Shown piece by piece: positions 7,352-57,326 of a stretch of DNA of 64,000 bases; the stretch's first letter is position 1; every line of letters begins with the position of its first letter. The notes under the pieces were generated by a model. The model saw only the letters and a list, made by a program, of their open reading frames with translations. It was not told the DNA's origin and ran no database searches. The stretch covers positions 64,104,774-64,168,773 of the forward strand of contig NC_089272.1 in NCBI RefSeq assembly GCF_963678975.1. Direction: 5' to 3'. The translations under genes were made by a program, and so were the position numbers. The stretch comes from Dysidea avara. Its lineage: Eukaryota; Porifera; Demospongiae; Dictyoceratida; Dysideidae.

Positions 7352-7678
7352 CAAACACAGAAATATTAAATGACACAGCACTCAATACAAGAGCAGTTCC
7401 TGTAACAAAATCTCGCACTGAACATGTAAATTCTCCAGCATTAGCTTCTTTCACTTCATCAATGAACAAAGTATGACGACGATCAATATTAGTAATAGGA
7501 GTTGAAGTTGGTCCTCTCATGTTGGTATCTAGATCTTGAAATCCAGCTCTACTATAAAAATAGTCTAACCTAGTGATATCATTAGCAATAGCCAGACAAA
7601 CAAGTTCTGCATCAGACCCAATCTGTAACATTATATTCTCTAGTGTGTTATAGATGGTGAGGTTTTCACTGTAACGTT
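7352..7678 (-). CDS. Gene A exon 4: Ig-like domain 3
   Basis: 327 nt (109 codons), phase 1 on both sides. The acceptor is a pyrimidine-rich tract ending TTTAG and the donor is G|GTGAGT. The frame includes LVCLAIAND for the first Ig cysteine and EANAGEFTCSV for the second. It is about 85-90% similar to 31556-31880 in gene B, which carries a 2-nt deletion at the second cysteine. Confidence 0.75.
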
Positions 7679-10600
7679 CTAAACAACAAACAACACCCAT
7701 TAAACAAGTAAATCACAACTACACACACAACTTACCAACTTGTCTTAGTTGATAAGAATAAGGACTATCAATAGTCTCAAAGATCAATCTGTTTACTACA
7801 TGACATCGATACATATCACCAATATCATCCTCATCAACATTTCCAACAATCAGATCACCAGATGGTAACACCTTGTACTTGTCAGTAGTAGAAATGTCTA
7901 TTGGTGATGAATCACGTGTCCACTCTACCATTGGAGTTGGGTTGGCGCTTGGAGGGTTACATGGTAACAAAATGTAAGAACCAAGTGTGACATCAACCAT
8001 GGTGGTGTTTGAGGCAACACCATTCCAGTCATTGCCAAATGCTACAAACAAAAATCAAACACAAACTAACAATGAATATAGCTAACACACAATTGTAGAG
8101 TGTGTCACATGTACACTAAGTTTACTTAAATACTATTGAAGAATTATATACTGAAACAAATGACCAAAACATTATCAACTAAAGTTTTAACATGGGCATG
8201 AGTCATTTGCCTGATACATACGCACAGGCATGAGTACCACAACTCACCTGCAAGCACCTTAAGCGCCGTTAAAATGAATTATGTAAACCCTTGTTTTTCA
8301 GCATCAGCTAAATGTGCGGACGATGTAACAAAGCGTGGCATCATTGTTTTACTTACAATAAACATACCTGGTTAGTGCTAAACTCACTACGCACGAAATA
8401 GTGTTTCATTGGATTTTGCCTAGAAAACTAAGCGTTTTTACGAAACTAATTACATCACCTTAATCCTTACACAAAGCATGATCTAAAAATCTAGTTAACC
8501 CCACTGAACCCCACCATTTGCTGGTTTTGTGTTGAGACTATTGAGGTTCACGTGATATTTTGAACAGAACTATGCAATTAAGGTAATAGTTTTTAAGTAG
8601 CGTCTAAAGCGCTTCCGCCCTCTTCTGGCTACACGGTGTTTAATGCTTGGTGTCTGTTTCCGGCATTAAAATGTTTATAGTCCTGTACATAGGGCAGGTA
8701 CCAAATGCTAAACTAGCATTCCATGCTCTATTTGCAGGACTGTCTCCACATTAAATGTTTTAATGCCCGAAACAGAGACCAAGCATTAGATTCTATTTAG
8801 GCTGTTTTGGGTGGGTAATAAATCTCATATACTCCACCTTGTTTTCAAATATACTCCATGCCTTCAGGCACAATATAACATATGCTCAAAATCTAGGTTT
8901 GTCCAATCGCTATGCGTTGTTCACGTGCAGTGATTTAACGAGCGCGATTATTTTGTCACGTGAGGATGCATAGTTGCCATGGCGCTAGTATTATCGCAAA
9001 AAAACCAGTCGCTTTTGCTGAGCCTACAGCAGAAACAGCCGTGGATGAGGTAAGCAATCTGAGTGTAATGTGAAATAGAGTCTAAAGCAGTTACACGGGC
9101 ACAATGTGGAGTCCATGAAGTTTATAAACCCTCAGGCCCTTAGTAGCGCCCTCGCTTCACTCGTGCGCTACAGCCCGGGCCTTCGGGTTTATAAATTTCA
9201 TAGACTCCACATTGTGTCCGTATAACTATTATTTAATCATCATGTAGCTTTGTAGCTGATTATGCATGGTGATTACTTTTTAAAAAAAGTGAGATTTTCT
9301 TATACCATACTGCAAGTATACTGAAGCGAATAATGCAAAACACCAAATTTGTTTGTCAATCAAGATGTCTTTAGAATGATTTTTAAAGGCAGCATTTTAA
9401 GCATCGCAATGTTGTAGTGACACATAGCTATACCTGTTGCTATACAAAACCCCATGCAGGTGTTTAAACATTATCGTTAATTTTAAATGTCTTATCATTA
9501 AGGTAATGTATGACCCTTTAAGCAGTGAAAGGATAAGCAGGATTAGTGAAATAGTTGTGCCAGGTCAACCAATTACACACACAGTTCCTCAGTGTAAACT
9601 ACAGTATCTGTATGGTGCCAGTAATATTGTCATTTTTCAGATGCACAGTAGTACCTGTCCAATCATGCAATTAAGTTGCTTATTTTCTACAGCAGCTACA
9701 CCCTTGCACTAAATGCGCTGTAAACGACAAACGACAGCAGCTAGAAGCTTCATTTAAATGATAGCTTATTCCTAGATGAGTGCTTTGTTAGGTGCCAAAA
9801 CCACTTCGATATGTGCAGCAAATGGCAAGAAGAATGCGTGAACTCAAATGGAATGCAAACAGACAGCTTTACATATACCCAAAAGTTGTTAATTTAAAAA
9901 TGAAGTAGGGATCTATGCAATTAAAAATAGTAAAACAAGAGATGAATGATGGTATTACAGCATAGCTCGATGGGAAGTCCCTACTTTGGCACTGAACAAA
10001 ATAATAATAATAACTAATGTGCCAAAGTAGGGACTTTCCCACTGGGCTATGCTGTAATACCATCATTCATCTCTTGTTTCACTACTTTTTATTGCATAGA
10101 TCCCTACTTCATTTTTAAATAACAATTTAAAAAAAAATGCTAGTTTGTTTACAAATGGGTAGATGTTTATAAGTGATGGTATCTGCCTCCTCATACCTAC
10201 AGATATGGAAATATACAAGTGGACTAATACAAGTTACATTGTAGCTAGTTGTGCCACAACAAAAAACTGGAAGTGGAGTTCCCCATATTCTGTGGTTATG
10301 GGCTGGCTTTGCTGTTGTTTGGAGTTGATTGGAGTTCTCCTTACTGCGCTCTTCAACAATGTGCATCAGGAGATCGTGTTCTAGATCCAAGCATCCCTGT
10401 GTGCCTCCAGCTGTCGACCTTGCTGTTGCTGAGGGGTACCAGTCTCCTTTAGAACAATAATGTTTTTATATTGTGCTTGCTTCTTTTTCTTATAAAAATA
10501 TGTCTACCAGAACAATGTAACTTGTAACTGTTCTATCATACATGAATTAGAGTGACTGTTGTATTAGAGTATATCTCGGGTCAGCCAAGGAGTTTGCAGC

Positions 10601-13600: not shown

Positions 13601-15221
13601 GTGCATGTAGCAAAGAAAGACATACAACTACATAACTTACAGGCTAGTTGTATCAGAGCTGGTCTACTCCTAATACTACCCACTTCATTAGATAACACAC
13701 AGTGATATATCACTCCATCTGTAGTAGCATCAACATTCATTACAATGGCAGTAACCTCCAGTGTACCATTATCATGTATAATATGACTAGTGTCTTCTGA
13801 TACTAGCATATCATTACGATACCATGTCACTGTGATGTTTTGACCATCAAAACTACATGGAAACCTCTCTATGACATTCACATTGTTCCTTTGAGCTACC
13901 ACCACTCTATCTTCTGGCTCTGTGGTGAATCGTGGAGCTGTACCTGGTACAAGACAGTGAATAATTACATTTTGAAATAAGTCTCCAGAGGTACAATAGG
14001 TAATTGATACTACCACTATAACCTTTGTTTATAACCAACCTATATTTGCAAATACTTTAAGGTGGAAAAGTTTCTCAGAATTTGCTGAGACTGTCAGGAA
14101 ACCGCAAAACCTTTACCACTAGTCAATGCCCATGGATTTAAAACAAAAGGGTTTTCTGGTGAAATAAACACTGCATCGACTAAATCTTTCCACCTTGAAC
14201 AACTTGCAGTATATCATATTATCCACAACCACCCTACATACACGAATCAGTGGAAATACTTAGGCCACTCCAAACAAAATAATTCTCTGATTCCCGTCCC
14301 GGACTCAGTCATATTTGCATGTGGGCAGGCAATCCATTTCATTATTCCATTATAAGATTGCCTGGTACAACCATAAAAAGCTAAAAGCATATTTAAGCTT
14401 GTACCTTCCTTTCAAAAATAACACAAACGTGAATTTGTGCTAACTTAATAGCACACTGACATGTGAGCTGACACTATTACAAGATCTGGGCCGGTATAAA
14501 ATGTAAGAATAAATAGAATATAGAATATTAAGAGCTGAGAGGAACCAGATGAGGGCAGTGGACGGGAAACAAAGAATTAATTAGGAGTGACCTTACATCA
14601 GTACATTGTTAACCTATAGCTAGTCCAACACAATCTTTATCTATATTGAACAATCTGATGACTTAGTCACTAATGCTATACTGAACTTAACGGATCTTAT
14701 ACAATAGCTAATAGTGTAGCTGCATATGATTGCCATCAACAATACACAAAACTTTGTAGTATGCTCATTCTAAACATTATTACTAAACTAATCCCTCCCG
14801 ACCAGATGGAAGAGATGCCATGCAAAGCCACAAGAATTCTTTTCTATGGCTTCCCATGAACTCATTTGTCTCAAGTGATTACTATCAGCTCATCTGATCG
14901 CGGCGAGTATCTGAACAACATGTACTACACACCACAGGCCGGTCACATTACAACAACTAATCCTAAACAAACAGCCACTAGCACAAACCGCAACCATACC
15001 GCTATCCAGCCCGCATCCCACAGCCTACGTATCCCACTTCATACCCCACAAAACATTTAAAATTCATTCTCAGCCATTCAGCAGTCGTCATGACCCACAA
15101 CATTAACACTCCAGCAACATCAATACTAGTGTTGATCGCGCCGCCTACCTGGAGGTACTCCACAAATGAGGGAAGCGCAACACAGCACTAGTAGCAAGGT
15201 CGCGGCCACCGCCTGCTTCAT
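7352..15221 (-). CDS. Gene A: Ig-domain protein with signal peptide (5' part, four exons)
   Basis: Exons in transcript order are 15149-15221, 13641-13943, 7736-8041 and 7352-7678. Every junction has an AG acceptor and GT donor, and every intron is phase 1, so exons join without breaking frame (336 codons plus one base). The product starts with a hydrophobic signal peptide and continues with three Ig-like domains, so it is predicted to be secreted or on the cell surface. The second Ig domain has the LPCNPP...W...LPSGDL...Y.C pattern of cell-adhesion Ig proteins of the L1/contactin/DSCAM type (family resemblance only). The last exon ends at a good donor, so the gene continues. No downstream exon is recognisable before the hAT-like insertion at 6279. 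The intron between the second and third exons is 5.6 kb against 2.4 kb in the paralogue, the difference being largely foldback elements. Confidence 0.75.
7736..8041 (-). CDS. Gene A exon 3: Ig-like domain 2
   Basis: 306 nt (102 codons), phase 1-1, acceptor TTTGTAG and donor G|GTAAGT. Landmarks are ILLPCNPP (first Cys), VEWTRD (core Trp), KVLPSGDLIVGNV and GDMYRCHV (second Cys). It is nearly identical to 31938-32243. Confidence 0.85.
8042..9088 (-). other. Intron sequence of gene A
   Basis: Part of the 5.6-kb second intron. It contains a stretch around 8640-8790 where AATGCTTGGTGTCTGTTTCC and a later inverted version (GAAACAGAGACCAAGCATT) face each other, another probable foldback. I see no exon. 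Confidence 0.45.
8635..8788. mobile_element. Probable foldback MITE
   Basis: The left arm, starting near TTTAATGCTTGGTGTCTGTT, is complementary to the right arm ending near AGAGACCAAGCATTAGA. Internal arms also pair (TTTATAGTCCTG with CAGGACTGTCTCC, imperfectly). Confidence 0.5.
9089..9228. mobile_element. Foldback MITE, 140 bp
   Basis: The terminal repeats are AGTTACACGGGCACAATGTG at the left and its near reverse complement at the right (CACATTGTGTCCGTATAACT). The arms continue through GGAGTCCATGAAGTTTATAA. The core contains CCTCAGGCCCTTAGTAGCGC, shared in reverse complement with the element at 6595-6687. Confidence 0.75.
9229..9886 (-). other. Intron sequence of gene A
   Basis: AT-rich sequence with no supported exon. 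A short open frame at 9437-9712 lacks convincing splice context or domain signal. Confidence 0.4.
9887..10124. mobile_element. Foldback element with 106-bp arms
   Basis: The left arm 9887-9992 and right arm 10019-10124 are near-perfect reverse complements around a 26-bp AT-rich spacer that includes ATAATAATAATAAC. The arms include AAATGAAGTAGGGATCTATG and AAGTCCCTACTTTGGCAC. Confidence 0.85.
10125..11819 (-). other. Intron sequence of gene A with one motif copy and a possible exon-like ORF
   Basis: It holds an inverted copy of the dispersed motif GATACTCTAATAGAGCAGTC at 10552-10579 and a 105-codon minus-strand open frame at 10648-10965. The open frame reads protein-like but matches no family I know and may belong to a decayed element. 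I see nothing else supportable. Confidence 0.4.
11820..12015. mobile_element. Nested palindromic element
   Basis: Two 26-bp palindromic blocks based on GTGCATTATAACTTATAATG and GTGCATTATAAGTTATAATG flank a short GGTTGCGG...CCGCAAC hairpin. Outer arms around CAGTGCCATAA and CACAAGTGCCGGTGG are also partly complementary. It reads as a compound hairpin MITE. Confidence 0.65.
12727..12830. mobile_element. Foldback MITE
   Basis: Arms TTATACAACGTGCACTAGTG and GCACTCGTGGCCGTTGTGTA are inverted and continue through AGTGCTCTGCCTGTATAAA. The centre has CTTCGGCCCTCAGGCTCGTG, similar in style to the cores at 6595 and 9089. Confidence 0.7.
12857..12942. mobile_element. Small foldback MITE
   Basis: Arms TACAAGTATGATATCGCAGT and ACTATGATATTATACAAGTA are approximate reverse complements. 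The centre is TTCGAGGCGAAGCC. It lies 27 bp from the preceding element. Confidence 0.55.
13641..13943 (-). CDS. Gene A exon 2: Ig-like domain 1
   Basis: 303 nt (101 codons), phase 1-1. The acceptor is TTGTACCAG and the donor T|GTAAGT. Landmarks are ERFPCSFDG (first Cys), VTWYRND (core Trp) and VIYHCVLSNEVGS (second Cys). The paralogue is 34680-34982. Confidence 0.85.
14059..14196. mobile_element. MITE-like inverted repeat in intron 1 of gene A
   Basis: The ends are AAGGTGGAAA and TTTCCACCTT, in inverted orientation. A diverged copy sits at the equivalent place in gene B (35139-35299), so this insertion predates the gene duplication. Confidence 0.6.
14260..14596. mobile_element. MITE with TAGGCCACTCC ends in intron 1 of gene A
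   Basis: The left end is TTAGGCCACTCCAAA followed by TTCCCGTCC. The right end has GGACGGGAAAC and GGAGTGACCTTA, in inverted orientation. The same family is found at 35881-36229 in gene B but at a different place relative to flanking intron sequence. Confidence 0.65.
15149..15221 (-). CDS. Gene A exon 1: signal peptide
   Basis: 73 nt (24 codons plus one base). It begins ATG and encodes MKQAVAATLLLVLCCASLIC then GVPP, a clear hydrophobic leader. The donor is CCAG|GTAGGC. The paralogous exon in gene B is at 36390-36459, and conservation of the ATG, leader and donor supports this start. Confidence 0.8.
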
Positions 15222-24290: not shown

Positions 24291-24299
24291 GGATAAGAA

Positions 24300-36400: not shown

Positions 36401-36459
36401 CCACAAATCAGGGAAGTGCTACACAGCAGTAGCAAGGTCACGGCCACCGCCTGCTTCAT
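30184..36459 (-). CDS. Gene B: Ig-domain protein, tandem paralogue of gene A, frame-broken
   Basis: Exons in transcript order are 36390-36459, 34680-34982, 31938-32243, 31556-31880, 30959-31207, 30727-30886, 30523-30668 and 30184-30474. All have GT-AG borders. The first four match gene A exon by exon, and the remaining four add three more Ig domains, giving a signal peptide and six Ig domains. Introns are phase 1 except between 30727 and 30668, where one Ig domain is split by a phase 2 intron. Exon 31556-31880 is 325 nt against 327 nt in gene A. The missing 2 nt shift the frame so it no longer agrees with the next exon. Gene B is therefore a pseudogene in this haplotype, a sequencing or assembly error, or is rescued by unseen splicing. 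The last exon ends in GTGAGT, so a 3' part is expected; none was recognised upstream of 30184. Confidence 0.7.
30523..30668 (-). CDS. Gene B exon 7: second half of Ig-like domain 5
   Basis: 146 nt, entered in phase 2 and left in phase 1, with acceptor ATATACAG and donor G|GTTAGA. There is no ATG, so it is invisible to start-codon ORF searches. The translation has LLELRVINFTANDSGQYSVV then ITNKAGT, the F-G region of an Ig domain, but Val sits where the second cysteine should be. Confidence 0.7.
30727..30886 (-). CDS. Gene B exon 6: first half of Ig-like domain 5
   Basis: 160 nt, phase 1 in and phase 2 out, with acceptor CCTATAG and donor AG|GTAACA. The translation includes NLDIFIEVSADPMPSVDWLL. 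The Trp is in place, but the first canonical cysteine is replaced (Ile or Val in IFIEV). Confidence 0.7.
30959..31207 (-). CDS. Gene B exon 5: Ig-like domain 4
   Basis: 249 nt (83 codons), phase 1-1, acceptor CTCTATAG and donor G|GTGAGT. Landmarks are IAIPCVVTGLPAP (first Cys) and DSGAYQCFVENIHG (second Cys). The core Trp is replaced by Tyr (SISYRVN). Confidence 0.8.
31556..31880 (-). pseudogene. Gene B exon 4: Ig-like domain 3 with 2-nt deletion
   Basis: Very similar to gene A 7352-7678, but 325 nt instead of 327. Gene A reads GAATTTACATGTTCAG where gene B reads GAATGTGTGTTCAG, at about 31622-31637 (reverse strand). The loss falls on the second Ig cysteine. The shifted frame stays open to the donor but leaves in phase 2, while the next exon needs phase 1. 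Confidence 0.75.
31938..32243 (-). CDS. Gene B exon 3: Ig-like domain 2
   Basis: 306 nt (102 codons), phase 1-1, donor G|GTAAGT. It has the same LLPCNPP, VTWTLD, LPSGDLIVGNV and MYRCHV landmarks as gene A, with replacements clustered near NPPMANPASM. Confidence 0.85.
32244..34679 (-). other. Intron 2 of gene B
   Basis: 2.4 kb with an AT microsatellite (about 32338-32357) and a diverged relative of the 5190/5380 repeat near 32765-32810. It lacks the foldback cluster found in gene A's corresponding intron. No exon seen. Confidence 0.5.
34680..34982 (-). CDS. Gene B exon 2: Ig-like domain 1
   Basis: 303 nt (101 codons), phase 1-1, acceptor TTGTTCCAG and donor T|GTAAGT. It shares ERFPCSFDG, VTWYRND and YHCVLSNEVGS with gene A exon 2, with substitutions mainly around the residues after WYRND. 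Confidence 0.85.
35139..35299. mobile_element. MITE-like inverted repeat, orthologous to that at 14059
   Basis: The ends CAAAGTGGAA and TTTTTCCACCTTG are inverted. Internal GTCAGCAAACCGCAAAAC matches the gene A copy. Its position relative to exon 2 is the same as in gene A. Confidence 0.55.
35881..36229. mobile_element. MITE with TAGGCCACTCC ends in intron 1 of gene B
   Basis: The left end is TTAGGCCACTCCAAATAAAT with TTTCCCGTCC. The right end has GACGGGAAACATATTTGGAG then TGGCCTTA, inverted. It sits between intron blocks different from those flanking the gene A copy. Confidence 0.7.
36390..36459 (-). CDS. Gene B exon 1: signal peptide
   Basis: 70 nt (23 codons plus one base) encoding MKQAVAVTLLLLCSTSLICG then VPP. 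The donor is CCAG|GTAGGC. It is one codon shorter than gene A. The open frame extends upstream without a stop, but I see no earlier ATG there, so this ATG is preferred. Confidence 0.8.
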
Positions 36460-42414: not shown

Positions 42415-42466
42415 ATGAAATTCACAAAGTTGGTCGGCCAACTCTTACTACTCGCCCTACTATCAG
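42415..42466 (+). CDS. Gene C exon 1: signal peptide
   Basis: 52 nt encoding MKFTKLVGQLLLLALLS, then a G that is completed by the next exon. The donor is G|GTAGGA, phase 1. The Lys-containing start and Leu-rich core are typical of a leader. Confidence 0.8.
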
Positions 42467-45400: not shown

Positions 45401-48280
45401 ATAATGTGTGTGTGTGTGTGGGTGCGTGCGTGCGTGCGTGTAGTGTGTGCATTAGTGCTGAAACGAATAGCAATATTTACTATTCGAATAGTTGTGAACA
45501 AAAAAATGACTGAATATTTGATTATTCTTTAATCATGTATTTCTGTTGAATAAGTATTGCTAGGGAGGAAGGTAAAGCCTGAGAGCTATTTCTTCTAAAA
45601 CAGAATCTTTACAGCATCATACATGCCACTTTATTCATACTCCAAAGTTTCAAGACTGGCTTTATCCATCTAATCACAGTGTGCAAAGTGCTAATAAATA
45701 TTCGAATAGTGTCTTAACGAATTGAATAGTGTTATGCTGACCGATTAGTCAAATAACCAAATAATTGTTTCAGCACTAGTAGTATACATGCTGTGTATGT
45801 GTGTGGATTTGGTATGTGATGGTAATAGTAATTCTTCATGTTAATGACATCATCATTGTATACTATTGGCCACATTCCATACAAGTTGTTAATGCTATGT
45901 CAAATAATTGCAGTACATTGTGGTGTTTGTGATAAGATTTTGGGAAGCTGTTTGTATTTCTACCTGTAGTTAAGTGTGTTTCTGTATATATTTTCAATTC
46001 TTCTTGCGAAAAGTAATTCCAGCCAGTGTACTACTGTATATCACATTCAAGTTGTTTACAAACTATTCCATTTCAGCTCTGTATTGACAGACCACACTGT
46101 GACCACACGTAGCAGATATTTGGTGTACATACGCACAAATGAAACTTCCCTACTGAAGGAAGGACGCAATAGAAAAACCTTCATAGTCGTCTCCTTTAGC
46201 TCTAAAGAGGACAACTTTATTGCAGCGATGGTGGGCTTGGTCCTGACATGTCCATTATGAGAGTTCTCCACTAACTGTGTTGGTTTGGCCATAATTGGTC
46301 TACTGGTAGCCTCAAGTTGCCCTCAAAGAGTAACACATCTCCTGTGGTTGTGTGGTTTTGATAGTTTATTGTTGTGGAAGTGGTGAATGGCAATGTTTTT
46401 ATAATGAGGTCATTTCTTGACTTTGTTCCCACACATGACAATGATGTAAGGTTGTGTAATTTTGTGTTAGTGTAGAGAGTGTCTGTGCATGTGACGTAAT
46501 CCTTTTATCTGATGCTTTGAGACCTTAACTAAATGTAGGTGTCCTCAAGTGTCCACATTAACAGGTTACAGTGTAATATGAACACATTGGGACCAGCCAA
46601 TAGTGTCCTGATTATCAAGGTGTCCTGATTATCAAGGTGTCCTGATTATCAAGGTGTCCTGATTATCAAGGTGTCCTGATTATCAAGGTGTCCTGATTAT
46701 CAAGGTGTCCTGTTTATCAAGGTGTCCTGATTATCAAGGTGTCCTGATTATCGAGGTGTCCTGTTTATCTAGGTGTCCTGATTATCAAGGTGTCCTGATT
46801 ATCAAGGTGTCCTGTTTATCAAGGTGTCCTGATTATCAAGGTGTCCTGTTTATCAAGGTGTCCTGATTATCAAGGTGTCCTGATTATCAAGGTGTCCTGT
46901 TTATCTAGGTGTCCTGATTATCAAGGTGTCCTGATTATCAAGGTGTCCTGTTTATCAAGGTGTCCTGATTATCAAGGTGTCCTGATTATCAAGGTGTCCT
47001 GTTTATCAAGGTGTCCTGATTATCAAGGTGTCCTGATTATCAAGGTGTCCTGATTATCAAGGTGTCCTGTTTATCAAGGTGTCCTGATTATCAAGGTGTC
47101 CTGATTATCAAGGTGTCCTGTTTATCAAGGTGTCCTGATTATCAAGGTGTCCTGATTATCAAGGTGTCCTGTTTATCAAGGTGTCCTGATTATCAACGTG
47201 TCCTGTTTATCAAGGTGTCCTGATTATCAAGGTGTCCTGTTTATCAAGGTGTCCTGATTATCAAGGTGTCCTGATTATCAAGGTGTCCTGATTATCAAGG
47301 TGTCCTGATTATCAAGGTGTCCTGATTATCAAGGTGTCCTGATTATCAAGGTGTCCTGATTATCAAGGTGTCCTGATTATCAAGGTGTTCTGATTATCAA
47401 GGTGTCCTGATTATCAAGGTGTTCTTATTATCAAGGTGTTCTGATTATCAAGGTGTTCTGATTATCAAGGTGTCCTGATTTTCCCAGTCAGTTTATGTAC
47501 TATGAGATACTGACCAGAGTAGGTGTCCTCAGGTGTCCACATTAACAGGTTCCATTGTGCCCCTATACAATGGGTCTAACATAGTTGTGTCACAGTATGT
47601 GTTGATTGTATTGTGTTCAACAGAAACCTGCTATGGGTAATAAACAGCATGGCTTCTATTTAGTCTCATGTAGGTCTTCAGTAATAGACACCTGTGGCTT
47701 CTAATTTGATTAAATGCCATACAACAATGCCTTATAGCCATTTGTTTGAAATGTGACATTCCAATTATAATTTATTATAATTTATAAATCATGATCTGTG
47801 CATTAGTGTGTATGTCTTGTTTCCTAGTTGTGGTGGTCAGGTGCTGCTGACAATACAACCACATTAACAGTCAACACAACAGGGTCGTACTACTGTACTG
47901 TAGAGCATAACAACACGTTGCTAAGGACTTGTCCTGCTCATGTTTCATTGGTTGAATTCAAACCTCCTGACAATGCAGCAGAACAAACAATTAAAGTATT
48001 TGAAAAAAGTGATGTTGTATTAACTGCTTGCCAGAATGTGACCTCTGTTCCCCCGGCACAAATATCATGGAGAAAGACTGGTAGTAACGAACTACCCAGA
48101 AAGGCTATAGTGCTGCCGTCAGGCAACCTACGGATATCTGGTGCAGCCTTCTCCGGTAATAAGAACAGAAGACATGATGGGGTGTATATTTGTACTGCTA
48201 CTAATAGTGTATCAGGAGAGAATTGGACTAGTCCACCAGTGACAGTGACTAAGCAAAGTAAGCAGTGTGCGTGTGTGTGT

Positions 48281-48316
<36 letters not shown>

Positions 48317-51300
48317 GTGTGTAGTAGCCAGTAGCCTTTTGAATAATAGAGTCTCTGGACTGGGAAAGGTCTATCTTCTATTAGACTGAGTTTTATGTTG
48401 TTTAACAATGTTTTCACTGTTGTGATTATTACTGACAATTTGCCATGGCTATTGGCTCAGTGGTCAACAGATTTGGCAGATAAAGCTCCTACAAGCTTCA
48501 ATTGTGGCATGTTCAGGAAGCCATAATATTGTTGTATAATACCATTTTCTAACTTATTTAGCATCACATAGCACAGCAGGATTTATACTTTCCCCCAAAA
48601 CATACCACACAATAACTACACTGACCTTTCCTTTCCTTCAAGATGTTGGTTAGGTAGAATTCAGCCCAAAGGCCATCTGACAAGTAGAATTTTAATCAAA
48701 CTACTATCTGACAGCCGATTTTCTTCGAACAAGCATAACTCTACAGACTTGATTTCATTATTTGATGTCACTCAACAGCAGCAACTACAATACATCATAG
48801 AGCTCCAAGTCCTTCTATGTGCCCTTTACTTATTGTTTAAAGTGTGATGATATCGGTTCATATAAATGGCTTCATATGGTGTCTAGTTAGTTACCACTTA
48901 ATGTGTAACCTCATGACTTCAACTATATGGTACTGCTCAAATGCAATGTTGTCTTGCGAGAGTACAAGCAATAAAAAAAACTTACTAAGTAAAGAATGTG
49001 ACATCATTTGAATACTCATGAGCAAAACGGATGCCACACTCTTTAATTAGCAAGTATTTTATAATTGCTCACATTCTTGCGAGATGATGTTGCATTTGAG
49101 TGGTACCATATTAGCAGGAGCACATCAAATCCTATGGACAAGGGAGCATGTAACTCTGTAAACAGCAAAATTCAAACATGGCTGCTGTGTACTATAATAA
49201 GTAGCTTTTAAAATTTCCTAATTAGGATATTTTGCAGAGGCGCATGCTCAAATACATCACGTTTCTGCTGCGACGAAGCGAAGCTAGGGAAATGAAGTTC
49301 AATGGCATGACGGAGAAATAGTAGCACAGGGTTAACAGGACAGTCTTTCTACAGTCACTAATCACGTAAAATCACGCGAGATTATCCCACTTGCCTATTC
49401 CAAGCTCTACCTTCGACTTGATGATCTCCTATCGAAGCAGCTTTACATTATAGTGATAAGACGATGGAGTATCAGCCCATTCAGTGTATCCCTGTTGTGC
49501 GTAGGAATGATGTAACCAATTATGTACATAGTAACACTGGATGCCATGTTTGAATTTTGCCCGTACGGAGTTACTTGCTCCCTTGTCCATAGGATTCGAT
49601 GAGCTCCTGATATTAGTTGCTATGGTAATCACACTGTATGTCACTGTAGCAAATCAGTATAAGAATCTTATGTTAAGTGGTAGTGATGATAAAGGTTTGA
49701 CTACAATGCTCCCTCAATTATGAAACTCCCAATGGTCTTTGACAATGATAATAGTAAAATTGTTCAGATAAGTGATAATTTCAGTTTATAATGGTGTTGT
49801 AATACTCTAATAGAACATACACTAATTGTGATGTAATTCTAACAAATGCTCAATTTATTATTGTGTTAAACAAAGTAAGTGTCTTATGTTTGTCCTAACA
49901 TTAGTGTCTTTCTTGTTGCAGGTGAATCCAGAAGTGGAGAGTTTCAAAGTGACACTCCTGTCAATATCACCGCCACTACAGGGGAAAAAGCTGTGTTGGA
50001 GTGTGTAGTAGATGGTGACAATATACTCTCCATTACCTGGACACCGTTTCCTAATAATAGTACTGTCAATAGAGCAGGGCAAGGTGGTATACTGACAATT
50101 CGTCATGTTACTATTGACCATGAGGGTGTGTACACGTGCTCATTTAACCAGTCATACAATGGTGAAACTGTAACTGGGGAACGTCAGTATTATCTGACTG
50201 TTATAGGTTAGTGTGTGTGTAGGTATGTGTGTGTATGTATGTGTGTACGTTCATGCATGTGTGTGTGTGTGTGTGTGTGCGTGCGTTCATGCTGCTCAGG
50301 TCTGTCTTGAAATGAATCACATGTGACAGTGGTTGTTTGGTGCGGACGGTGATGTATGTGATCCTGTGTTGCTATTGTTTGGTTAACATGTAGCAGCTAC
50401 CATTGTCTTTTGCTCTCTGTGTGTGTGCACGCACACATGTGTAGTGTAGTGGTTTGTGTCATGCATGTGTGTGTTTGTGGTGATTTGCTCTCACATAAAA
50501 TTTTCTATTTCAGATCCTCCCAGAATTACCAACTTCACTTTGGAGCAAACAGATTCCCAGTTAAAAGTTACTTGTGTGGCTTCTGGTAAGCCTACCCCAG
50601 AGATCATGTTAAACACACCTTCAGGGATGTCGTTGACTAATCAGGGAAATACCCTGACAGTAACAGCTGTTACTAGTGGGATATACCAGTGTGTGGTGAT
50701 CAGTGAAGCAGGATGTGCTCGTCATGAACTAGATGTTGATGTTCCAACCCCCTCCAGCACAATAGCCAGCCATGCCCTCCTCTCAACAAGCATGCCAATT
50801 GGTGTAGTCTCTAGTGCAATCAGTCTGAGCAGCCACATCTTCTCAAGTATTTCAACTAGCCACATCCCCTCAATGAGTTCTGTTGCGTTGATTACCAGCC
50901 ACACCCCCTCCAAAAGTTCTGTTGCAGTGATGACCAGCCACACCCCTTCAATGAGTTCTGTTACAGTGATGACCAGCCACACCCCCTCAATGAGTTCATT
51001 AACATCCAGCCTCACCCCTTCAAGTTCTATTTTTCCAAGTAATTCTTTGATGTCCAGCCAAACCAGCTCTGTTGAAGTGATATCCAACCACACCCCTTCA
51101 AGTTCCATTGCTCTAAGTAGTTCTTTGATGTCCAGCCAAACCAGCTCTGTTGAAGTGATATCCAGCCACACCCCTTCAAGTAGCTCTGTTGCATTAACAT
51201 CCAGCCACACCCCTTCAAGTTCCATTGCTCTAAGTAGTTCTTTGATGTCCAGCCAAACCAGCTCTGTTGAAGTGATATCCAGCCACACCCCTTCAAGTAG

Positions 51301-54300
51301 CTCTGTTGCATTAACATCCAGCCACACCCCTTCAAGTTCCATTGCTCTAAGTAGTTCTTTGATGTCCAGCCAAACCAGCTCTGTTGAAGTGATATCCAGC
51401 CACACCCCTTCAAGTAGCTCTGTTGCATTAACATCCAGCCACGCCTCATCAAGTAGCTCTGTTACACAAACATCCAGCCACACCCCTTCAAGTTCCATTG
51501 CTCCTATGATATCAAGTAGCTTTTTGGTGTCCAGCCAAACCAGCTCTGTTGAAATAATCTCCAGTTTTATTCCTGCAAGTAGTTCTGTCGCAAGTATTTA
51601 CAGCCACACCCCTTCAATGGAAGTCTCAACATTGGCTAGTCATGTTTCTACTGTGATCAGTGTGGTGAGCTCTGCTGTCCCTGCAATCTCCAGTCGTGCA
51701 CCTGTAGCCACACCCACCCCACAAGGTTTGTCATTCTGTATAGTAATAAATAAGTAAATGTTTACCATTTTATGTGCACATGATTAACTTGTTATACAGT
51801 GGAACCATTTAGGGACTTGTGGACCATAATAAATTTATCTGTATCATGATTTTCAAGCCAGGGGTCTGTCTAAATGTGTGTACACTAATCAGAGGGAGGA
51901 CATGATGTCACAATAATTGTGTGACATGTGCGTACTGTACATTTTTACCATATGGTATAGTTCTAGTAAATTGTGAAGTTTAGCATTGTCAGAAATAGTA
52001 ATTAACCAGTGTAGAAATCGTTTCATGTGTTGAGCTTCATTGAGCTTGAGTGATTTTACAATAAATTTTGTAATAGGGCATTATTTAGAATACATTGTAA
52101 TCATATTTCAGGTACCTGTGTTAATATTTGCTGTATTCTTAGTCACTGCTAGTAAATACAATCAACTTTGGTGTCTACAATGATGCAAGTAGCTAGTACA
52201 TTAGTTTTTCATCATGTAATTATCATTGGAATTTAATTACATTATGCCAAAAAAAAACTATATGCGTTATGACATCATGTCCTACTAATAATGAGACTAT
52301 GGACAAGTGTCCTGATTATCAAGGTGTCCTTATTAGTGAGGTGTCCTGATTTCAGGGAAATAAATGTGTGTACACTAATACAAATGGGACCATGGACAAG
52401 TATCCCGATTATCAAGTAATCTACATTTCAGGATATCCTAGTAATACAATAGGTTCAGTCATTCTTTTATACCCAAAAGGAGCATGTGTTATATTGACAA
52501 TGTTTATAATATTCTGTCTCCATAGTGACCATCCCTACCAGTGAAGTGGGTGGAGTCAAGCTCACGTGGGTGTCAGGTAACACACTATTAGTAAAATGGG
52601 ATCGTGTCACCACTGATGACATCATCGGCTACAAGATATCCTGGGTGGCTGGTGACGTAATGTCTGGAAAAGTTATCAACACCCTTTCTAGTTTTCATAC
52701 ATTTGTAGACGATCGTTTCTTAACTAGTGGAAATGTGACAGTGTTAATGTGGACATATAACTCTGCTGGTGATGGTCCTATTAGCATGACCAGTAAGTTA
52801 TTTGTTTATCACCTAAAAGGTGATCTATGTATCTTCAAAAATAATTCTGTCCCTATAATATTCCTTAACAAAAATAATTGTATCTCAAGAAGTTTATATT
52901 ACATGTACACTGGAACCTGTTAATGTGGACACTTGAGGACACCTACATAATCCAGACACTCAGTTAAGGTCCCAAAGTATCCCTTAGTACTTAAATTTAC
53001 CTGGAAAATCAGGACATCTTGATAATCAGCTCCATTAGTCCGTCGTAGCAGCTGTTGTTATATTAGTCGTAACTTGTTGTAGCCACTGGACCATCCACTC
53101 AGTTGCCGTCTACCTCCACAATGACAAGCCCTACCCCTTCAAGGAGTTCTCTGATGGGCTCTACTTCTACAGTGACAAGCCACACCCCTTCAAGCGACCC
53201 TCTGATTGGCCCTACCTCCATAATGACAAGCCCCACCCCTTCAAGCAGCTCTTTGATTGGTTCTATTTCCACAATGATGAGCCCTACTCCTTCCAGCAGC
53301 CCTCTGATTGGCTCTACCTCAATAATGACAAGCCCCACCCCTTCAAGCAGCTCTCTGATTGGCTCTACCTCCACAATGGCAAGTCCCAGCCCTTCATCAA
53401 GTCCAGCAGGTTTGTCTATAAAACAAACTGATTGCATTCACCTGAGATCATTATTTCTTTACTCTTATGCTTAAGTATCGTGCTCTTTCTAGTATATCAA
53501 AGTACTTTTTTGATAAGTAATTCAAGGGCTTTCCAGTACTCCTAAACCTTTTGGCATGTGTGAGTGCTCAGGTGAACGCACTTAGATGGTAATGTTGTAC
53601 TATTACCATGATGTCTTGTGTTATTGTAGCAATTACACCTATTACTAAAGTGAGCGGGATCAAGCTCACATGGGTCAAGGACAACTCAGTACTAGTAGAA
53701 TGGGATCGTGTGATCTCTGATGACATCAAGGGCTACAAGTTACACTGGAGTAGTCAGAGTAACGAGTCAATAAATAGACCAATTGCTGCATTGACAGCTG
53801 AAAATGCTACACAACTCTTAATAGACCACTCTAATAAAGAGCTGATGGATGTTATTGAATTATATGTCTATATATGGACGTACAATCTAGCAGGGGATGG
53901 CCCCGATACTTATTCATGTAAGCCTAATATAGTACATGTGTATTGTATGACATAATCAAACCATCTGAAGTGCTCATGCCTGGTACACTGTAATTGTATT
54001 TTATAGACTTTTGAAGGATTTACTGTTTTGCTAGTGAAAATTAGTGTTACACCGATATGATATTTTGCCGACGTTCTTGATATTGGATAATATTTTGAAT
54101 GGCTAATCTGATATAGTACTGCGTATCTAGCTTCCTGCATGGAAATTTGATTATAAAGGACCAGTTTAACTTGATGAAGTGGTAGTAGTGCTCAGTACAT
54201 TAAAGTAGTAGTAACAACACTGACATGACTAAAATGTAATAATCAAATTCGTAGCTAGCTTTTTTTTGCAAATTTGTACCACCAAGTACATCGTATCCTG

Positions 54301-57300
54301 CTTTAGCTTATCAAAACATCGTTACTATTAAGTGTGAATAAAATTAGCAAGTCAGATTATGAAGTACTGTATCTTAAATGCAAGAGCCTACAAGATGTAA
54401 GTAATACTGCTAATGAGGTGGCTATCTCTTGTGTGTGTTTAATATTGTCCATTCATAGGATGATGAGGTTTTAGGTATTAACTCAACATTATCATGTTAT
54501 AGTACTGGTGTGGGTGTTTCATTAATATTGTATGTCCTTGTCATCCCCAGCAATCATCAAGCCATTCACTAATCTACAATGTACTAACCTTTCGTCGTTT
54601 GCTATACGCTACCAGTGGACTAAACATGTTGTAGTGACAAGATACCAGGTTAGTAGAGCAGCATAGCTAGTAAATGGTGCACTTTGTGAAGAAACTATGA
54701 AACTTTACACATACCATATTTGACCAGTTAATAGCCACAGCTGCTATAACTTTCAGGAAGGAAATCCCTGTGGCTACTATACAAAGGGCGGCTACTATCA
54801 GAAGCAGGTACTATGGGCTTGTGTGGTAGCAGTCCGTGGCATTTGTACAGATTCACAAGTGACTAACTTTGTTTAATCATCTATCATTCCTCTCAAAAAT
54901 GCCCTGGCTTAAAACATCTCCTTTGCCCGGTTTCTGCTTCAACATGTCAATGTGTCTTATCAGCACTTACATCAATGTATTCAGATACAAGTCGTGGCTC
55001 TTATCTGAGGGTGGCTCTTATGACAATAATTATAAGCTGTGGAGTGGCTACTGTCCAGGGAGCGGCTATTATACAAGCCACGGCTATTAACTGGTCAATA
55101 CAGTAGTACCTGTCTACCATAAAGTGTATTTTGAGATATAGAGCCATCACAGATCTGAGGTTTGGTGTCCTCTACAGTTCATTTTATGCTTAAAAATAGT
55201 GACCTTTGTCTATATGCCATGCAACACTCAGTTTGTTCAAATCAGGTGCCAAATTGAATCCAAGAAACAAATTGATACCTGTTGTAAGTCCGTAGCATAT
55301 TCCATATCAACTATAAATCCAACTTCCCATGCGATTACACCTTTTCATCTACACTCTTTATCTATTTTTAATATGTTGCTATGCCACTCTTCTAGGTGTC
55401 CTACCATTGTAGTAGAACTGGTAGTGAAGGTCGTGAAGTAGTTACCACTCCTTTCACAGAGAAGACGTTCAATGCACAACCAGATTGTATATATACTGTC
55501 ACTTTGAAAGCTGAAGGACATGATGGATATTTGTTAAACTGTTACACTACTACACCAGGTAAGTTTGTAGTTGTTTGAGGGTGGGTCTCTGTTGTTCTCT
55601 TGATGTTGTTTTCCTATAAACTTGCTGGTCTATTGGCTACAAATGTGTACACACGTGTGGTTATTTAGTAGTTAGTACACATACTGTTAAGTCTTGTCAC
55701 CAAAGATGGTCTTGTACACACTGTAGCCATTAGGGGGAACAGGGACACTAACAGTATTCCTGCCACTTTCATCAGGCCTGAGATACAACTAATTTGGTTA
55801 ATCAATAAACACAGATTGTACATTTATCAGGTGTGAATGTTAATCACATCCACAGCTGTTGTACCATACTCAATACATACAACACTAAACACACATCCAC
55901 TGTAGGCCAGTGTAGGCTTAGCAGCATTTATATGTTGACCAAACGCATACACAGGTAAGCCTTTTCTTCAAGCTTACTTGTACATTTATATGTGGCCTCC
56001 AGGCCTCACAATTCAAAGCTGCTTGTGGACTTTCATCACACATGACCCAAATCCAAGATCCTTTGTAAAATGGATGAGACAGGACAAAATGTAACTCAGT
56101 GGCCTAGATTTAATTCAGATGACCCGACCCCTGATGTGTGTATTGTATGTATGTTACGGTGGCTTGTGTGTTATCATATTTCAAATAGTGCCAAAGATAT
56201 CAGCTGAAATCCCCAAGAATCAATCATTTGATAAAGGCTTCTGGATTTATTGGAAGTTCTACAATATGGATCCCATCCCAGATGACCTCAACATCGTACT
56301 TAAAATACAAGTTGGTGACCAACAGGTGGAAATCAGGGATCCCACCAAGCTATCTGAGTATGTGCAGCTGCCGCTAGCACTAGATGGTGACAGTGTTCAA
56401 GTGAGCATCACCATGTCAGTAGGAAATGACTGGACTGATACTGCTACTATTAATGTGACAGAAGTGGGTAAGTGACTCTGGGGGCTGGAATAAAACATAT
56501 TATGTATTTTAAGATCACATGTGACGTTTGATGTTTGTATAAGGGGCTGGAGGGTAAGGGTAGTCCAGAGAGTATGTAGAATTTGATTTTTAATAGGGTT
56601 AAGCATTTTACATAATTCCATTAGCAATTCACTTGAGCTTGTCGTATCCCCGTGGTGTATCCAGTCCAGTAATCAGTTTAGAGAAGTTGTTTGATTTATA
56701 GATGCACAACAGTTTACTTACATGCGCGCGCACACACACACACGCACACACACACACACACACACTACATCCACATGCATACACGCATGCGCACACATCA
56801 AAGTACATTTTAACAAGTACACGAAAAGTCCAACATTTGCTAGCCAATACCAAAATCCTTAGGAGAACTTGTTTAGCCCTACTTTGTGACTTTCCAAGTT
56901 GCCTATTATAAATTGACGGGTATCATATTTGATCATCATATGGTTTCATTTTGTTTAGGTCTAGTACCACCGGTAAGAGAATCTCAGATTAATGATGATG
57001 ATGATGACGGCATCACATGGATATTCTATGTAGCTGCATTCTGTGCAGTAGTCATAGTGGTGCTATTAGTGATCATCTTGATATTAGCATTAAAACATGT
57101 TCAAATGCGTCGACGAGAAATGGACAAGAGTAAGTAGCTATTATACTCTTAACTTGTTTAGTATTTTGTGTTCCCATAGTTACCAATCATCGAGAAAAGA
57201 TCATGGCAACGTTCAAACATGAAAGGTGGGTATTATTTAGAGTGCGTCGCCTAGTGTGTATCATGTTCCCATAGTAATGGCGTCAACAACCAATCAGAAA

Positions 57301-57326
57301 CTGGTCCAAAGTATATAGTTGTATAA
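42415..57326 (+). CDS. Gene C: Ig/mucin-stalk/FN3 single-pass receptor, complete 14-exon model, 1250 aa
   Basis: Exons: 42415-42466, 42632-42714, 47828-48257, 49922-50206, 50514-51725, 52526-52792, 53083-53409, 53630-53917, 54551-54648, 55396-55558, 56189-56467, 56959-57129, 57180-57225, 57275-57326. All borders are GT-AG, phases agree at every junction, and lengths sum to 3753 nt, exactly divisible by three with a terminal TAA. Approximate residues: signal peptide 1-17; Ig1 18-95; Ig2 96-187; Ig3 189-283; Ig4 284-361; Ser/Thr/Pro-rich stalk 362-687 with 39-residue repeats; FN3 688-776; second stalk 777-885 with 17-residue repeats; FN3 886-981; split FN3 982-1068; FN3-like 1069-1161; acidic stretch then transmembrane helix about 1182-1207; cytoplasmic tail of about 43 residues. 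This is the layout of a type I surface adhesion or recognition receptor. The tail has a basic RRR cluster and ends PKYIVV, a YxxV sequence that could act as an SH2-binding, endocytic or hydrophobic PDZ-binding end. No kinase or phosphatase domain follows. Confidence 0.85.
42632..42714 (+). CDS. Gene C exon 2: N-terminal half of Ig domain 1
   Basis: 83 nt, phase 1 in and phase 0 out, acceptor ACTGTAG and donor ATA|GTAAGT. It encodes SKPEDIVLSSTDIGQLTCNG, ending at the first Ig cysteine. The other half is in the next exon over a 5.1-kb intron. The frame has no ATG. Confidence 0.75.
45220..45450. repeat. TG-rich microsatellite
   Basis: Runs of TG broken by regular TAG interruptions (GTGTGTGTAG units), with GCGC and TGCG sections. 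Its minus-strand translation is a Thr-His repeat and not a real protein. Confidence 0.9.
45452..45780. mobile_element. hAT-like MITE, about 330 bp
   Basis: The left end is TTAGTGCTGAAACGAATAG and the right end AATAATTGTTTCAGCACTAG, inverted. AGTGCTGAAAC ends are common in animal hAT elements. The interior repeats ATTCGAATAG in both orientations. A matching target duplication was not evident, perhaps because the left flank is a microsatellite. Confidence 0.6.
46536..46575 (-). mobile_element. Pogo/Tigger-like MITE end
   Basis: TAGGTGTCCTCAAGTGTCCA, then CATTAACAGGTTACAGTGTA, the reverse of a CAGTGGAACCTG-type terminus. It lies just left of the 17-bp minisatellite, and a near copy (47521-47559) lies just right of it. 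Confidence 0.55.
46603..47480. repeat. 17-bp minisatellite, about 51 copies
   Basis: The unit is GTGTCCTGATTATCAAG, with recurring variants CTGTTTATC, TTATCTAGG and GTGTTCTGA. The same unit occurs once or twice inside pogo-like MITE sequence at 52310-52355 and 53010-53030 in this gene, so the array appears to be an expansion of part of that element. The 70-codon plus-strand open frame in it is a repeat translation. Confidence 0.95.
47828..48257 (+). CDS. Gene C exon 3: rest of Ig domain 1 and Ig domain 2
   Basis: 430 nt, phase 0 in and phase 1 out, acceptor GTTTCCTAG and donor A|GTAAGC. LWWSGAADN supplies the core Trp and TTGSYYCTVEHNN the second Cys of Ig1. Ig2 has VVLTACQNV, ISWRKTG, VLPSGNLRISG and DGVYICTATNSVSG. 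The LPSGNL motif is also in genes A and B, which suggests related Ig2 domains. Confidence 0.85.
48258..48330. repeat. TG microsatellite at the start of intron 3
   Basis: GTGTGTGTGTACGTGTGTGT-type run immediately after the donor site. Confidence 0.85.
48331..49921 (+). other. Intron 3 of gene C
   Basis: AT-rich, with a partial dispersed motif near 49802. A stretch at about 49550-49590 (GCATCAAATCCTATGGACAA at 49123 read in inverse as TTGTCCATAGGATTCGATGA) suggests an inverted-repeat element between about 48930 and 49610. No exon recognised. Confidence 0.45.
49922..50206 (+). CDS. Gene C exon 4: Ig domain 3
   Basis: 285 nt (95 codons), phase 1-1, acceptor CTTGTTGCAG and donor G|GTTAGT. Landmarks are KAVLECVVDGDN (first Cys), ILSITWTPF (Trp), ILTIRHV and EGVYTCSFNQS (second Cys). 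Confidence 0.85.
50514..51725 (+). CDS. Gene C exon 5: Ig domain 4 and Ser/Thr/Pro-rich repeat stalk
   Basis: 1212 nt (404 codons), phase 1-1, acceptor TCTATTTCAG and donor G|GTTTGT. The first 78 residues are an Ig domain (LKVTCVASGKPTPE, SGIYQCVVISEAG) in which the usual Trp after the first Cys is missing (PEIMLNTPSG). The rest is Ser/Thr/Pro-rich with recurring SSHTPSSS, likely O-glycosylated and extended. From about 51121 a 117-bp unit (39 residues) repeats with almost no change, and a 78-bp shortened unit precedes it. Confidence 0.85.
51043..51440 (+). repeat. Coding minisatellite, 117-bp unit
   Basis: TTCTTTGATGTCCAGCC recurs at 51043, 51121, 51238 and 51355. The last two intervals are exactly 117 bp and the first is 78 bp. 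The period is a multiple of three, so copy-number changes keep the reading frame. Open frames on the minus strand here are antisense shadows. Confidence 0.9.
51797..52400. mobile_element. Pogo/Tigger-like MITE remnants in intron 5
   Basis: It begins TACAGTGGAACCATTTAGGG at about 51797, with GTGTGTACACTAAT at 51877 and again at 52367. The 17-bp-like sequence GTGTCCTGATTATCAAGG lies at 52308. Two overlapping or rearranged copies seem present. Confidence 0.5.
52526..52792 (+). CDS. Gene C exon 6: FN3 domain 1
   Basis: 267 nt (89 codons), phase 1-1, acceptor CTCCATAG and donor A|GTAAGT. The translation has VKLTWVSGNTLLVKWDRV, IIGYKISW and TYNSAGDGPIS, which match FN3 strands B, C and the F-G region. 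Confidence 0.85.
52905..53035. mobile_element. Pogo/Tigger-like MITE in intron 6
   Basis: TACACTGGAACCTGTTAATG, then GGACACTTGAGGACACCTAC, at the left; AAAATCAGGACATCTTGATA at the right. The reverse complement of the last part equals the 17-bp unit of the minisatellite at 46603. Confidence 0.6.
53083..53409 (+). CDS. Gene C exon 7: second Ser/Thr/Pro-rich stalk
   Basis: 327 nt (109 codons), phase 1-1, acceptor CTTGTTGTAG and donor G|GTTTGT. It is made of six 51-bp units (17 residues, such as MTSPTPSSSSLIGSTST). A separate exon carrying only a mucin-like linker between two FN3 domains is unusual. Confidence 0.85.
53630..53917 (+). CDS. Gene C exon 8: FN3 domain 2
   Basis: 288 nt (96 codons), phase 1-1, acceptor TTATTGTAG and donor T|GTAAGC. 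IKLTWVKDNSVLVEWDRV, IKGYKLHW and IWTYNLAGDGPD align with exon 6, so the two FN3 exons arose by duplication. Confidence 0.85.
54551..54648 (+). CDS. Gene C exon 9: first half of FN3 domain 3
   Basis: 98 nt, phase 1 in and phase 0 out, acceptor CCCCAG and donor CAG|GTTAGT. It encodes PFTNLQCTNLSSFAIRYQW, then THK-type residues leading into strand C. No ATG in frame; supported by phase. Confidence 0.65.
54719..55100. mobile_element. MITE with GACCAGTTAATAGCC ends in intron 9
   Basis: The left end is TTGACCAGTTAATAGCCACA and the right end GCCACGGCTATTAACTGGTC followed by AA, inverted. The interior has many GGCTACTAT-type motifs in both orientations. Confidence 0.65.
55396..55558 (+). CDS. Gene C exon 10: second half of FN3 domain 3
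   Basis: 163 nt, phase 0 in and phase 1 out, acceptor CTCTTCTAG and donor G|GTAAGT. It encodes VSYHCSRTGSEG and CIYTVTLKAEGHDGYLLNC, an FN3 C-terminal half with extra cysteines that could form disulfides. Confidence 0.75.
56189..56467 (+). CDS. Gene C exon 11: FN3-like membrane-proximal domain
   Basis: 279 nt (93 codons), phase 1-1, acceptor TTTCAAATAG and donor G|GTAAGT. It has FDKGFWIYWKFYNMDP early and ATINVTEVG at the end, a beta-sandwich-like pattern with alternating hydrophobics. Assignment as FN3 is tentative. Confidence 0.7.
56700..56790. repeat. CA microsatellite in intron 11
   Basis: A run of CA with CG and GC interruptions between about 56725 and 56765. Confidence 0.85.
56959..57129 (+). 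CDS. Gene C exon 12: transmembrane segment
   Basis: 171 nt (57 codons), phase 1-1, acceptor TTGTTTAG and donor A|GTAAGT. A five-Asp run (NDDDDDGITW) is followed by about 26 hydrophobic residues (IFYVAAFCAVVIVVLLVIIL and on) and then the basic stretch KHVQMRRREMDK, which fixes the C-terminus inside the cell. Confidence 0.88.
57180..57326 (+). CDS. Gene C exons 13-14: cytoplasmic tail and stop
   Basis: Exon 13 is 57180-57225 (phase 1 in, 2 out) and exon 14 is 57275-57326, ending in TAA. The tail reads ITNHREKIMATFKHER, then SNGVNNQSETGPKYIVV. Both acceptors are the same TTCCCATAG sequence, an indication that the short exon region may itself be duplicated. Confidence 0.7.

Follow-up and report, generated by a model that had tools for sequence, protein, structure and literature searches.

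Signs of exon-block exchange in a cluster of immunoglobulin-domain receptor genes of the sponge Dysidea avara

The window analyzed here is a 64,000-nucleotide stretch of the genome of the sponge Dysidea avara (assembly GCF_963678975.1, contig NC_089272.1, here termed C1, positions 64,104,774-64,168,773; window positions are marked w), which lies about 1 Mb from the end of C1 (65.1 Mb) and carries two members, A and B, of a family of genes encoding immunoglobulin (Ig) domains. Six members of this family are clustered at C1:64.08-64.52 Mb, and their first three Ig exons resemble one another closely, whereas most of the long introns around these exons do not align. Gene conversion of exon blocks would be the simplest account of this exon/intron pattern, and the interpretation favored on balance is an exchange of exon blocks between the loci of clustered Ig surface receptors that serve contact recognition or adhesion. 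Exon models were derived throughout from splice signals, phase and homology rather than from transcripts, signal peptides and transmembrane (TM) helices were read by eye rather than by a predictor, and whole-genome searches covered 550.8 Mb in 108 contigs of one assembly.

Searches of the genome with Ig1 of B, Ig2 of A and Ig4 of B each returned at least nine strong copies (9 of 45 rows at E<=1 for Ig1; 9 of 23 for Ig2 and 9 of 25 for Ig4 at E<=0.01), the other rows being weak matches to other Ig genes; these counts are lower bounds, only the best candidates having been scored (for Ig4, the best 150 of 263). Genes A and B, on the minus strand, share the cluster with four plus-strand genes, E (Ig1 at 64,297,255), F (64,352,101), G (64,422,351) and H (64,490,210), all on C1 and extending over 0.44 Mb from the tail of A to Ig4 of H, with two other genes, C and D, situated between B and E. 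The exons of E-H were assigned by order and spacing, those of H being spread over 29 kb. Outside the cluster lie gene I (C1:58.45 Mb), gene J (C7:8.31-8.36 Mb) and gene K (C11:7.60 Mb); among the matches listed, strong ones are restricted to C1, C7 and C11, in one place each. Ig4 of the cluster genes is 89-100% identical to that of B, and Ig4 of gene I only 47%. An earlier note on this DNA, made from the window sequence alone, understated the cluster, which holds at least six genes of the A/B type. No published description of the family was found in a search mostly confined to freely readable literature.

Silent sites in the first three Ig domains have diverged little among the six genes, the mean number of synonymous substitutions per synonymous site (dS) being 0.140 for Ig1, 0.103 for Ig2 and 0.143 for Ig3 (15 pairs; Ig3 of B up to its break). 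By blastn, only 0-22% of the flanking introns was covered in 14 of the 15 pairs, and 89% in the pair E-F. Because simulated flanks carrying 10, 15 or 20% substitutions plus indels were found in 24 of 24 cases and were 98-100% covered (73% at 30%), the introns of the six genes should align at their dS. Instead, in most pairs the matches stop between 1 and about 135 bases past the exon block (at 215 in G-H), and scattered patches follow farther out; between A and B, intron 1 retains patches of 68-78% identity, and a stretch around exon 1 is 82% identical. The loss of identity at the tract edges is abrupt except in E-F, a recent duplicate pair. In the 150 bp outside the block on either side, 38 of 42 identities (21 pairs of genes A-I, two sides) do not exceed the best of the shuffled controls (83.2, with a single shuffle for each pair); the four exceptions are E-F upstream and downstream, G-H upstream and A-B downstream. 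Inside the block, Ig2 and Ig3 are separated by an intron of 50-57 bp in which the six genes are 88.0-96.5% identical; its identity falls to 78-83% with I, 62-71% with J and 45-53% with K, and it is therefore not simply frozen.

The exons themselves contain conflicting sites. The pairwise homoplasy index (PHI) test, run with 2000 shuffles, reached its lowest possible p of 0.0005 in all four gene sets at both 50 and 100 bp. In Ig2 of F, the first half resembles E and the second resembles G (22 sites, of which one is out of order; p=0.0002), and F and G have in common a five-residue in-frame insert in Ig2. The divergence of gene I, 5.7 Mb away, depends on the block: its dS to the six is 0.91-1.30 in Ig1, 0.25-0.37 in Ig2 and 0.22-0.29 in Ig3. 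Judged by sequence, gene I appears to combine a cluster-like Ig2-Ig3 with an old Ig1 and an old Ig4.

According to the proposed model, members of the family would diversify by duplication and then by interlocus gene conversion of exon blocks, in which homology between donor and acceptor is confined to the exons and to the tiny introns within a block. Such exchange would keep the exons alike, shuffle small blocks between genes and let the long introns diverge, and B, although probably decayed, could still serve in it. The distal Ig domains, with their reshuffled residues, would bind a partner at the cell surface, and the tail would presumably recruit adaptors. Surface contact recognition or adhesion is the most likely function of the intact proteins as far as sequence can suggest; the partner may be a cell of the same animal, a cell of another individual or a microbe, and the alternatives considered below partly overlap.

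Several points weigh against this model. The PHI signal is weak at 200 bp (p 0.014-0.071), and a maximum chi-square scan brought just 7 of 60 trios, uncorrected and non-independent, to p<=0.001. Gene C and the region of gene D likewise have only exons in common, with dS of 0.28-0.30 in fibronectin type III (FN3)-like exons and 0.91 in E10, the domain before the membrane in C, which may mean that exchange occurs there too or that introns turn over faster than assumed. Splicing may partly constrain the short introns. The mean ratio of nonsynonymous to synonymous substitution (dN/dS) among the six genes is raised, at 0.60 in Ig1, 0.61 in Ig2 and 0.76 in Ig3 (15 pairs per domain), yet remains below 1. 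Finally, the evidence comes from one genome and from gene models without transcripts.

The arrangement given in the earlier note, with tandem minus-strand Ig genes A and B, plus-strand C and a neighboring D, was recovered as exon models with splice signals (A, w15221-7352, and B, w36459-30184, minus strand; C, w42415-57326, and D, presumably the gene meant in that note, w61561-63331 onward, plus strand). Ig domains above the Pfam cut-off are Ig1-3 and Ig7 of A, Ig1, Ig2, Ig4, Ig5 and Ig6 of B, and Ig2, Ig3 and Ig4 of C. The parts of gene A, in window positions unless C1 is given, are as follows.

15149..15221, minus: exon 1, signal peptide by eye (ATG and donor)
13641..13943, minus: exon 2, Ig1, phase 1-1 (splice signals, Pfam, paralogs)
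7736..8041, minus: exon 3, Ig2 (splice signals, Pfam, paralogs)
7352..7678, minus: exon 4, Ig3, the gene going on left of the window (splice signals, Pfam)
C1:64,079,767-64,102,960, minus: Ig4-Ig7, TM and tail (exon models left of the window)
C1:64,086,559-64,086,696, minus: TM exon (by eye; recurs in the cluster)
C1:64,079,767-64,080,015, minus: tail exon (provisional model)

Gene A is indeed a minus-strand Ig gene but does not finish at w7352, where the region marked in the earlier note begins: the model extends some 25 kb past the left window edge, to C1:64,079,767, through exons for Ig4, Ig5 (two exons), Ig6, Ig7 (two exons), the TM segment and the tail. As modeled, A is a membrane receptor with seven Ig domains, a TM segment and a tail, and it is the fullest model of the family. 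An A-like TM exon lies beside E, F and G (80-84% identical; four of the six matches listed are in the cluster, the other two being weak and elsewhere), and an A-like tail exon beside E (88%) and F (83%), the three matches listed being A, E and F; these recurrences indicate that both exons belong with the family. Neither a TM exon nor a tail exon for H, and no tail exon for G, was present among the matches listed. The phases of the TM and tail exons of A mismatch, so that a further small exon or another exon edge is needed and the tail is provisional.

A near-perfect fold-back, with two 189-nt arms that are 98% complementary and 7 nt apart, occupies w15976-16360, about 0.75 kb upstream of the start codon of A; more fold-backs are found at w1825-2152 and w9892-10120. 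The long intron of A contains a degenerate minisatellite (w2358-4767; unit about 31 bp), and a 37-bp satellite (43 copies, 97% matches, strong GC skew) lies between A and B (w20816-22410).

Gene B consists of the following exons, each modeled from splice signals unless stated.

36390..36459, minus: exon 1, signal peptide by eye
34680..34982, minus: Ig1 (also Pfam, paralogs)
31938..32243, minus: Ig2 (also Pfam, paralogs)
31556..31880, minus: Ig3, its frame broken by a change in length (325 nt; 327 in A)
30959..31207, minus: Ig4 (also Pfam, genome search)
30727..30886, minus: Ig5, first half, the domain being without the canonical Cys pair (also Pfam)
30523..30668, minus: Ig5, second half (also Pfam)
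30184..30474, minus: Ig6, the last B exon found (also Pfam)

Exons of A and B are 90-98% identical (Ig3 only up to the break). The frame-breaking change that the earlier note had seen in B is real: Ig3 is 2 nt shorter than in A, and the frame is lost before the end of the exon. Ig3 is open in the other eight of the nine paralogs. Ig7, TM and tail were not found behind B: the best Ig7 match there is no better than chance (E 2.0), and genome-wide searches for the TM and tail exons placed none near B among the matches listed. B is therefore probably a decayed, truncated copy. As the Ig exons are in phase 1-1, skipping of Ig3 would keep the frame, and a secreted product of B is possible; a decayed copy is the simpler explanation. 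The same note cited an Ig domain without cysteines as a mark of fast evolution; the domain found here to lack the canonical Cys pair is Ig5 (w30523-30886), and Ig5 of A also lacks it; the trait is therefore inherited, and its use as a sign of fast evolution is ruled out.

Comparison of A with B over exon 1 and Ig1-Ig6 gave a dN/dS of 0.66, with no amino-acid change in the Ig4 codons compared; searches for Ig5-Ig7 covered A and B only. With the means of 0.60-0.76 given above, diversifying selection is not demonstrated. Windows of 20 codons with pN/pS above 1, for example alignment codons 31-50 of Ig3 (ratio 4.24), were rejected as proof of positive selection, because pS in them is tiny and the genes are mosaic. 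Variable columns among the six genes number 31 in Ig1 (100 residues), 26 in Ig2 (101 plus the insert) and 42 in Ig3 (108). Only one of the last 22 residues of Ig1 varies, an invariance unlike the CDR3 region of antigen receptors.

A serious alternative, with a likelihood just short of even, is that these are plain adhesion genes, tandem duplicates under relaxed purifying selection, in which conversion would be a neutral by-product of clustering and no recognition would depend on diversity. The dN/dS means agree with this explanation, as does a family count of just nine (a lower bound), and the best sequence matches of A Ig1-3 in the Protein Data Bank (PDB) are contactins (contactin-2, E 1.2e-22), Dscam, Robo and DCC. 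Strings of Ig domains are common to A/B and to bilaterian Ig cell-adhesion molecules such as contactin, Dscam, Robo, DCC and sidekick, whereas no FN3 domain was found in the A/B models, and their genes are clustered with mosaic exons. Less easily explained by plain adhesion are the in-frame variants carried by the mosaic exons, such as the five-residue Ig2 insert of F and G, and the fact that dN/dS is higher among the six genes than against gene I in Ig1 (0.23-0.31 against I) and Ig2 (0.28-0.42), and less clearly so in Ig3 (0.43-0.58). Surface proteins with Ig-like domains are also represented in sponges by a receptor tyrosine kinase and an adhesion molecule of Geodia cydonium (described in portions of PMC12018476 and PMC11999971), which A/B resemble as Ig-bearing sponge surface proteins; this likeness is by description only, and A, unlike the kinase, has no kinase match in the frames scanned.

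It is unlikely that the genes encode innate immune or symbiont-sensing receptors, in which exchange would be favored by microbes rather than by conspecifics. The portion of PMC5103432 drawn on describes clustering and gene conversion for immune families: KIR, Sp185/333, FREP and similar clusters diversify by duplication, recombination and gene conversion, and KIR genes have minisatellites in the first intron. The A/B cluster is similar in its duplications and its signs of recombination or conversion, and differs in its proteins and its small number of genes. In sponges, I-set and V-set genes outnumber the other immune-type domains counted, according to the accessible part of PMC12909245, where 637 I-set genes are counted in Dysidea avara; with Ig genes so plentiful, a cluster in itself is not surprising. 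A point against microbe sensing is that a scan of the A tail and of 19 more frames past it detected no signaling domain. Within this range, a kinase or TIR receptor was likewise rejected for A, since no match at E<=0.1 appeared in these 20 of the 27 minus-strand frames of at least 50 aa, a set that starts at the tail exon and reaches some 14 kb past it. The tail exon, in its provisional model, has no Pfam match and by eye contains one YxxL (YESL), one PPEY and no canonical immunoreceptor tyrosine-based inhibitory motif (ITIM); YESL is presumably of the YxxL type, and PPEY is taken to be of the WW-binding type. In the Alr family of Hydractinia, the tails have motifs of the ITIM type or the corresponding activation (ITAM) type.

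Rather improbable is an explanation without gene conversion, in which selection holds the exons while introns turn over fast in a repeat-rich genome. The window is rich in repeats and fold-back elements, and the likeness of C and the D region, restricted to exons, would fit such turnover. Nevertheless, the introns of E and F are 95.6-95.8% identical over 2.0 and 2.9 kb, and a segment repeated in the D region is still aligned at 89% and 76%, which indicates that non-coding DNA can stay alignable here. In addition, within blocks the genes resemble one another both at silent sites and in the tiny intron, and the conflicting sites (PHI and the F Ig2 mosaic) and the block-specific dS of gene I argue against this explanation.

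Allorecognition receptors of a sessile or colonial animal, working like the Alr complex of Hydractinia, are a doubtful reading, drawn by analogy: it would fit the clustered Ig receptors, the exchange between paralogs, the broken copy and sponge graft responses, which imply a polymorphic genetic system (PMC5450542, in the part available), and it is opposed by the absence of average positive selection, by the V-set score of A Ig1-3, below the Pfam cut-off, and by the Amphimedon graft study, in the available part of which cell-adhesion genes were not significantly enriched (PMC5450542). Alr is described as a 41-member family with V-set and I-set domains (excerpt of PMC11999971), and the alr loci as set among pseudogenes and duplications (excerpt of PMC5103432). 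The A/B family is similarly a genomic cluster of related Ig receptors (six, C1:64.08-64.52 Mb) with a broken copy. In contrast to Alr, A Ig1-3 pass the I-set cut-off (72.2 bits) and not that of V-set (23.8 against 26), so that the V-set-like membrane-distal domain typical of Alr was not found there by sequence profile, the two systems being compared by description and not by sequence; V-set passes in A Ig7 (31.9) and C Ig3 (29.5), each time below I-set. The A/B family was not assigned to Alr because of the V-set result in A Ig1-3 and because a single genome was covered. A sponge allorecognition complex built from I-set instead of V-set receptors, with conversion between exon islands and with B and gene I as sequence partners, would be a long shot.

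The favored interpretation, exon-block exchange among contact receptors, bears on the suggestion in the earlier note that the locus may encode recognition or immune receptors. That suggestion agrees with a clustered, duplicating Ig family in which one copy is broken and paralogs show signs of having exchanged sequence, and positive selection on the A/B family is not supported so far (mean dN/dS 0.60-0.76, 15 pairs per domain); it remains a reasonable candidate reading, made somewhat stronger by exon exchange and weaker by the lack of positive selection. Exon exchange within drifted surrounding DNA is a pattern known from recognition and immune genes, and by this analogy a self/non-self role is a candidate only. 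In a graft transcriptome, adhesion and aggregation-factor genes reported earlier were not found enriched, as far as the available part of PMC5450542 states, and the genes of sponge graft recognition thus look unsettled; a compact Ig receptor cluster with mosaic exons is a concrete candidate for them. If correct, the interpretation would show that Ig receptors of an early animal branch undergo gene conversion by exon blocks.

Gene C is a single open frame of 14 exons from ATG 42415 to the stop at 57326. Its features, all from the open-frame model unless stated, are listed below in window positions.

42415..42466, plus: exon 1, signal peptide by eye
42632..42714, plus: Ig1, first half (recognized by eye; below Pfam cut-off)
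46603..47480, no strand: 17-bp minisatellite, 51.6 copies, in the intron splitting Ig1 (repeat scan)
47828..48257, plus: Ig1 second half and Ig2 (also Pfam)
49922..50206, plus: Ig3, no close relative elsewhere among the matches listed (also Pfam, genome search)
50514..51725, plus: Ig4 and first Ser/Thr-rich mucin-like repeat (also Pfam, repeat scan)
52526..52792, plus: FN3-like 1 (below Pfam cut-off)
53083..53409, plus: second mucin-like repeat, 51-bp units (also repeat scan)
53630..53917, plus: FN3-like 2 (below Pfam cut-off)
54551..54648, plus: FN3-like 3, first half (below Pfam cut-off)
55396..55558, plus: FN3-like 3, second half
56189..56467, plus: E10, domain before the membrane (no Pfam match; three genome copies listed, all at the locus)
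56959..57129, plus: TM exon by eye
57180..57225, plus: tail, first part
57275..57326, plus: tail, last part, ending KYIVV stop

The encoded order is four Ig domains, a long Ser/Thr repeat, an FN3-like domain, a second Ser/Thr repeat, two FN3-like domains, E10, the TM segment and a tail of about 44 residues ending in KYIVV. Ig1 scores 14.2 bits against a Pfam cut-off of 27, and the FN3-like domains 20.5, 21.3 and 18.7 bits against 25 (E 0.0003-0.002). E10 matched no Pfam family, and in the genome search all three of its listed matches are at this locus. The coding repeats reported for C in the earlier note are present, with units of 39, 78, 117 and 51 bp. The fast evolution that was read from C is not supported so far: the search with Ig3 gave one strong match among the seven listed (next E 3.6e-5) and thus no close relative, and against the D region dN/dS is 0.48 for FN3-2, 0.57 for FN3-3 and 0.29 for E10, indicating purifying selection. 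C as a fast-evolving receptor was set aside for now on these grounds. The 17-bp minisatellite of the Ig1 intron recurs briefly in another intron of C farther downstream (w52307-52351).

For gene D, four exons were modeled in frame.

61561..61672, plus: exon 1, signal peptide by eye
61818..61892, plus: exon 2
62907..63071, plus: exon 3
63127..63331, plus: exon 4, followed at the window edge by a 5-kb run of N

The D exons matched no Pfam family, and the sole relative listed for exon 3 is at C7:58,837-58,986 (64% identity), near the start of C7. Beyond the N run, 6-11 kb right of the last D exon, are exons like FN3-2, FN3-3, E10 (twice) and TM (twice) of C. The earlier note had described D as an adjoining gene of secreted type; the adjoining position was confirmed and a signal peptide was read by eye, but the C-like FN3 and TM exons beyond the N run suggest that D is perhaps not secreted. 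D would be a relative of C if, as seems plausible, it continues across the N run. A partial tandem duplication at C1:64,178,607-64,188,550 comprises the TM exon of the D region and its surroundings, which are 89% and then 76% identical over 788 and 775 columns. C and D are apparently a second receptor pair, unrelated to A/B and enclosed by their cluster.

An Rfam scan gave no match. A minus-strand open frame of 104 aa at w25965-26276 has a sole Pfam match that is very weak and far under the cut-off (E 0.028). Elsewhere in the genome, weak Ig matches concentrate at C5:6.77-7.65 Mb and C5:40.18-41.40 Mb, which suggests other, possibly larger Ig arrays.

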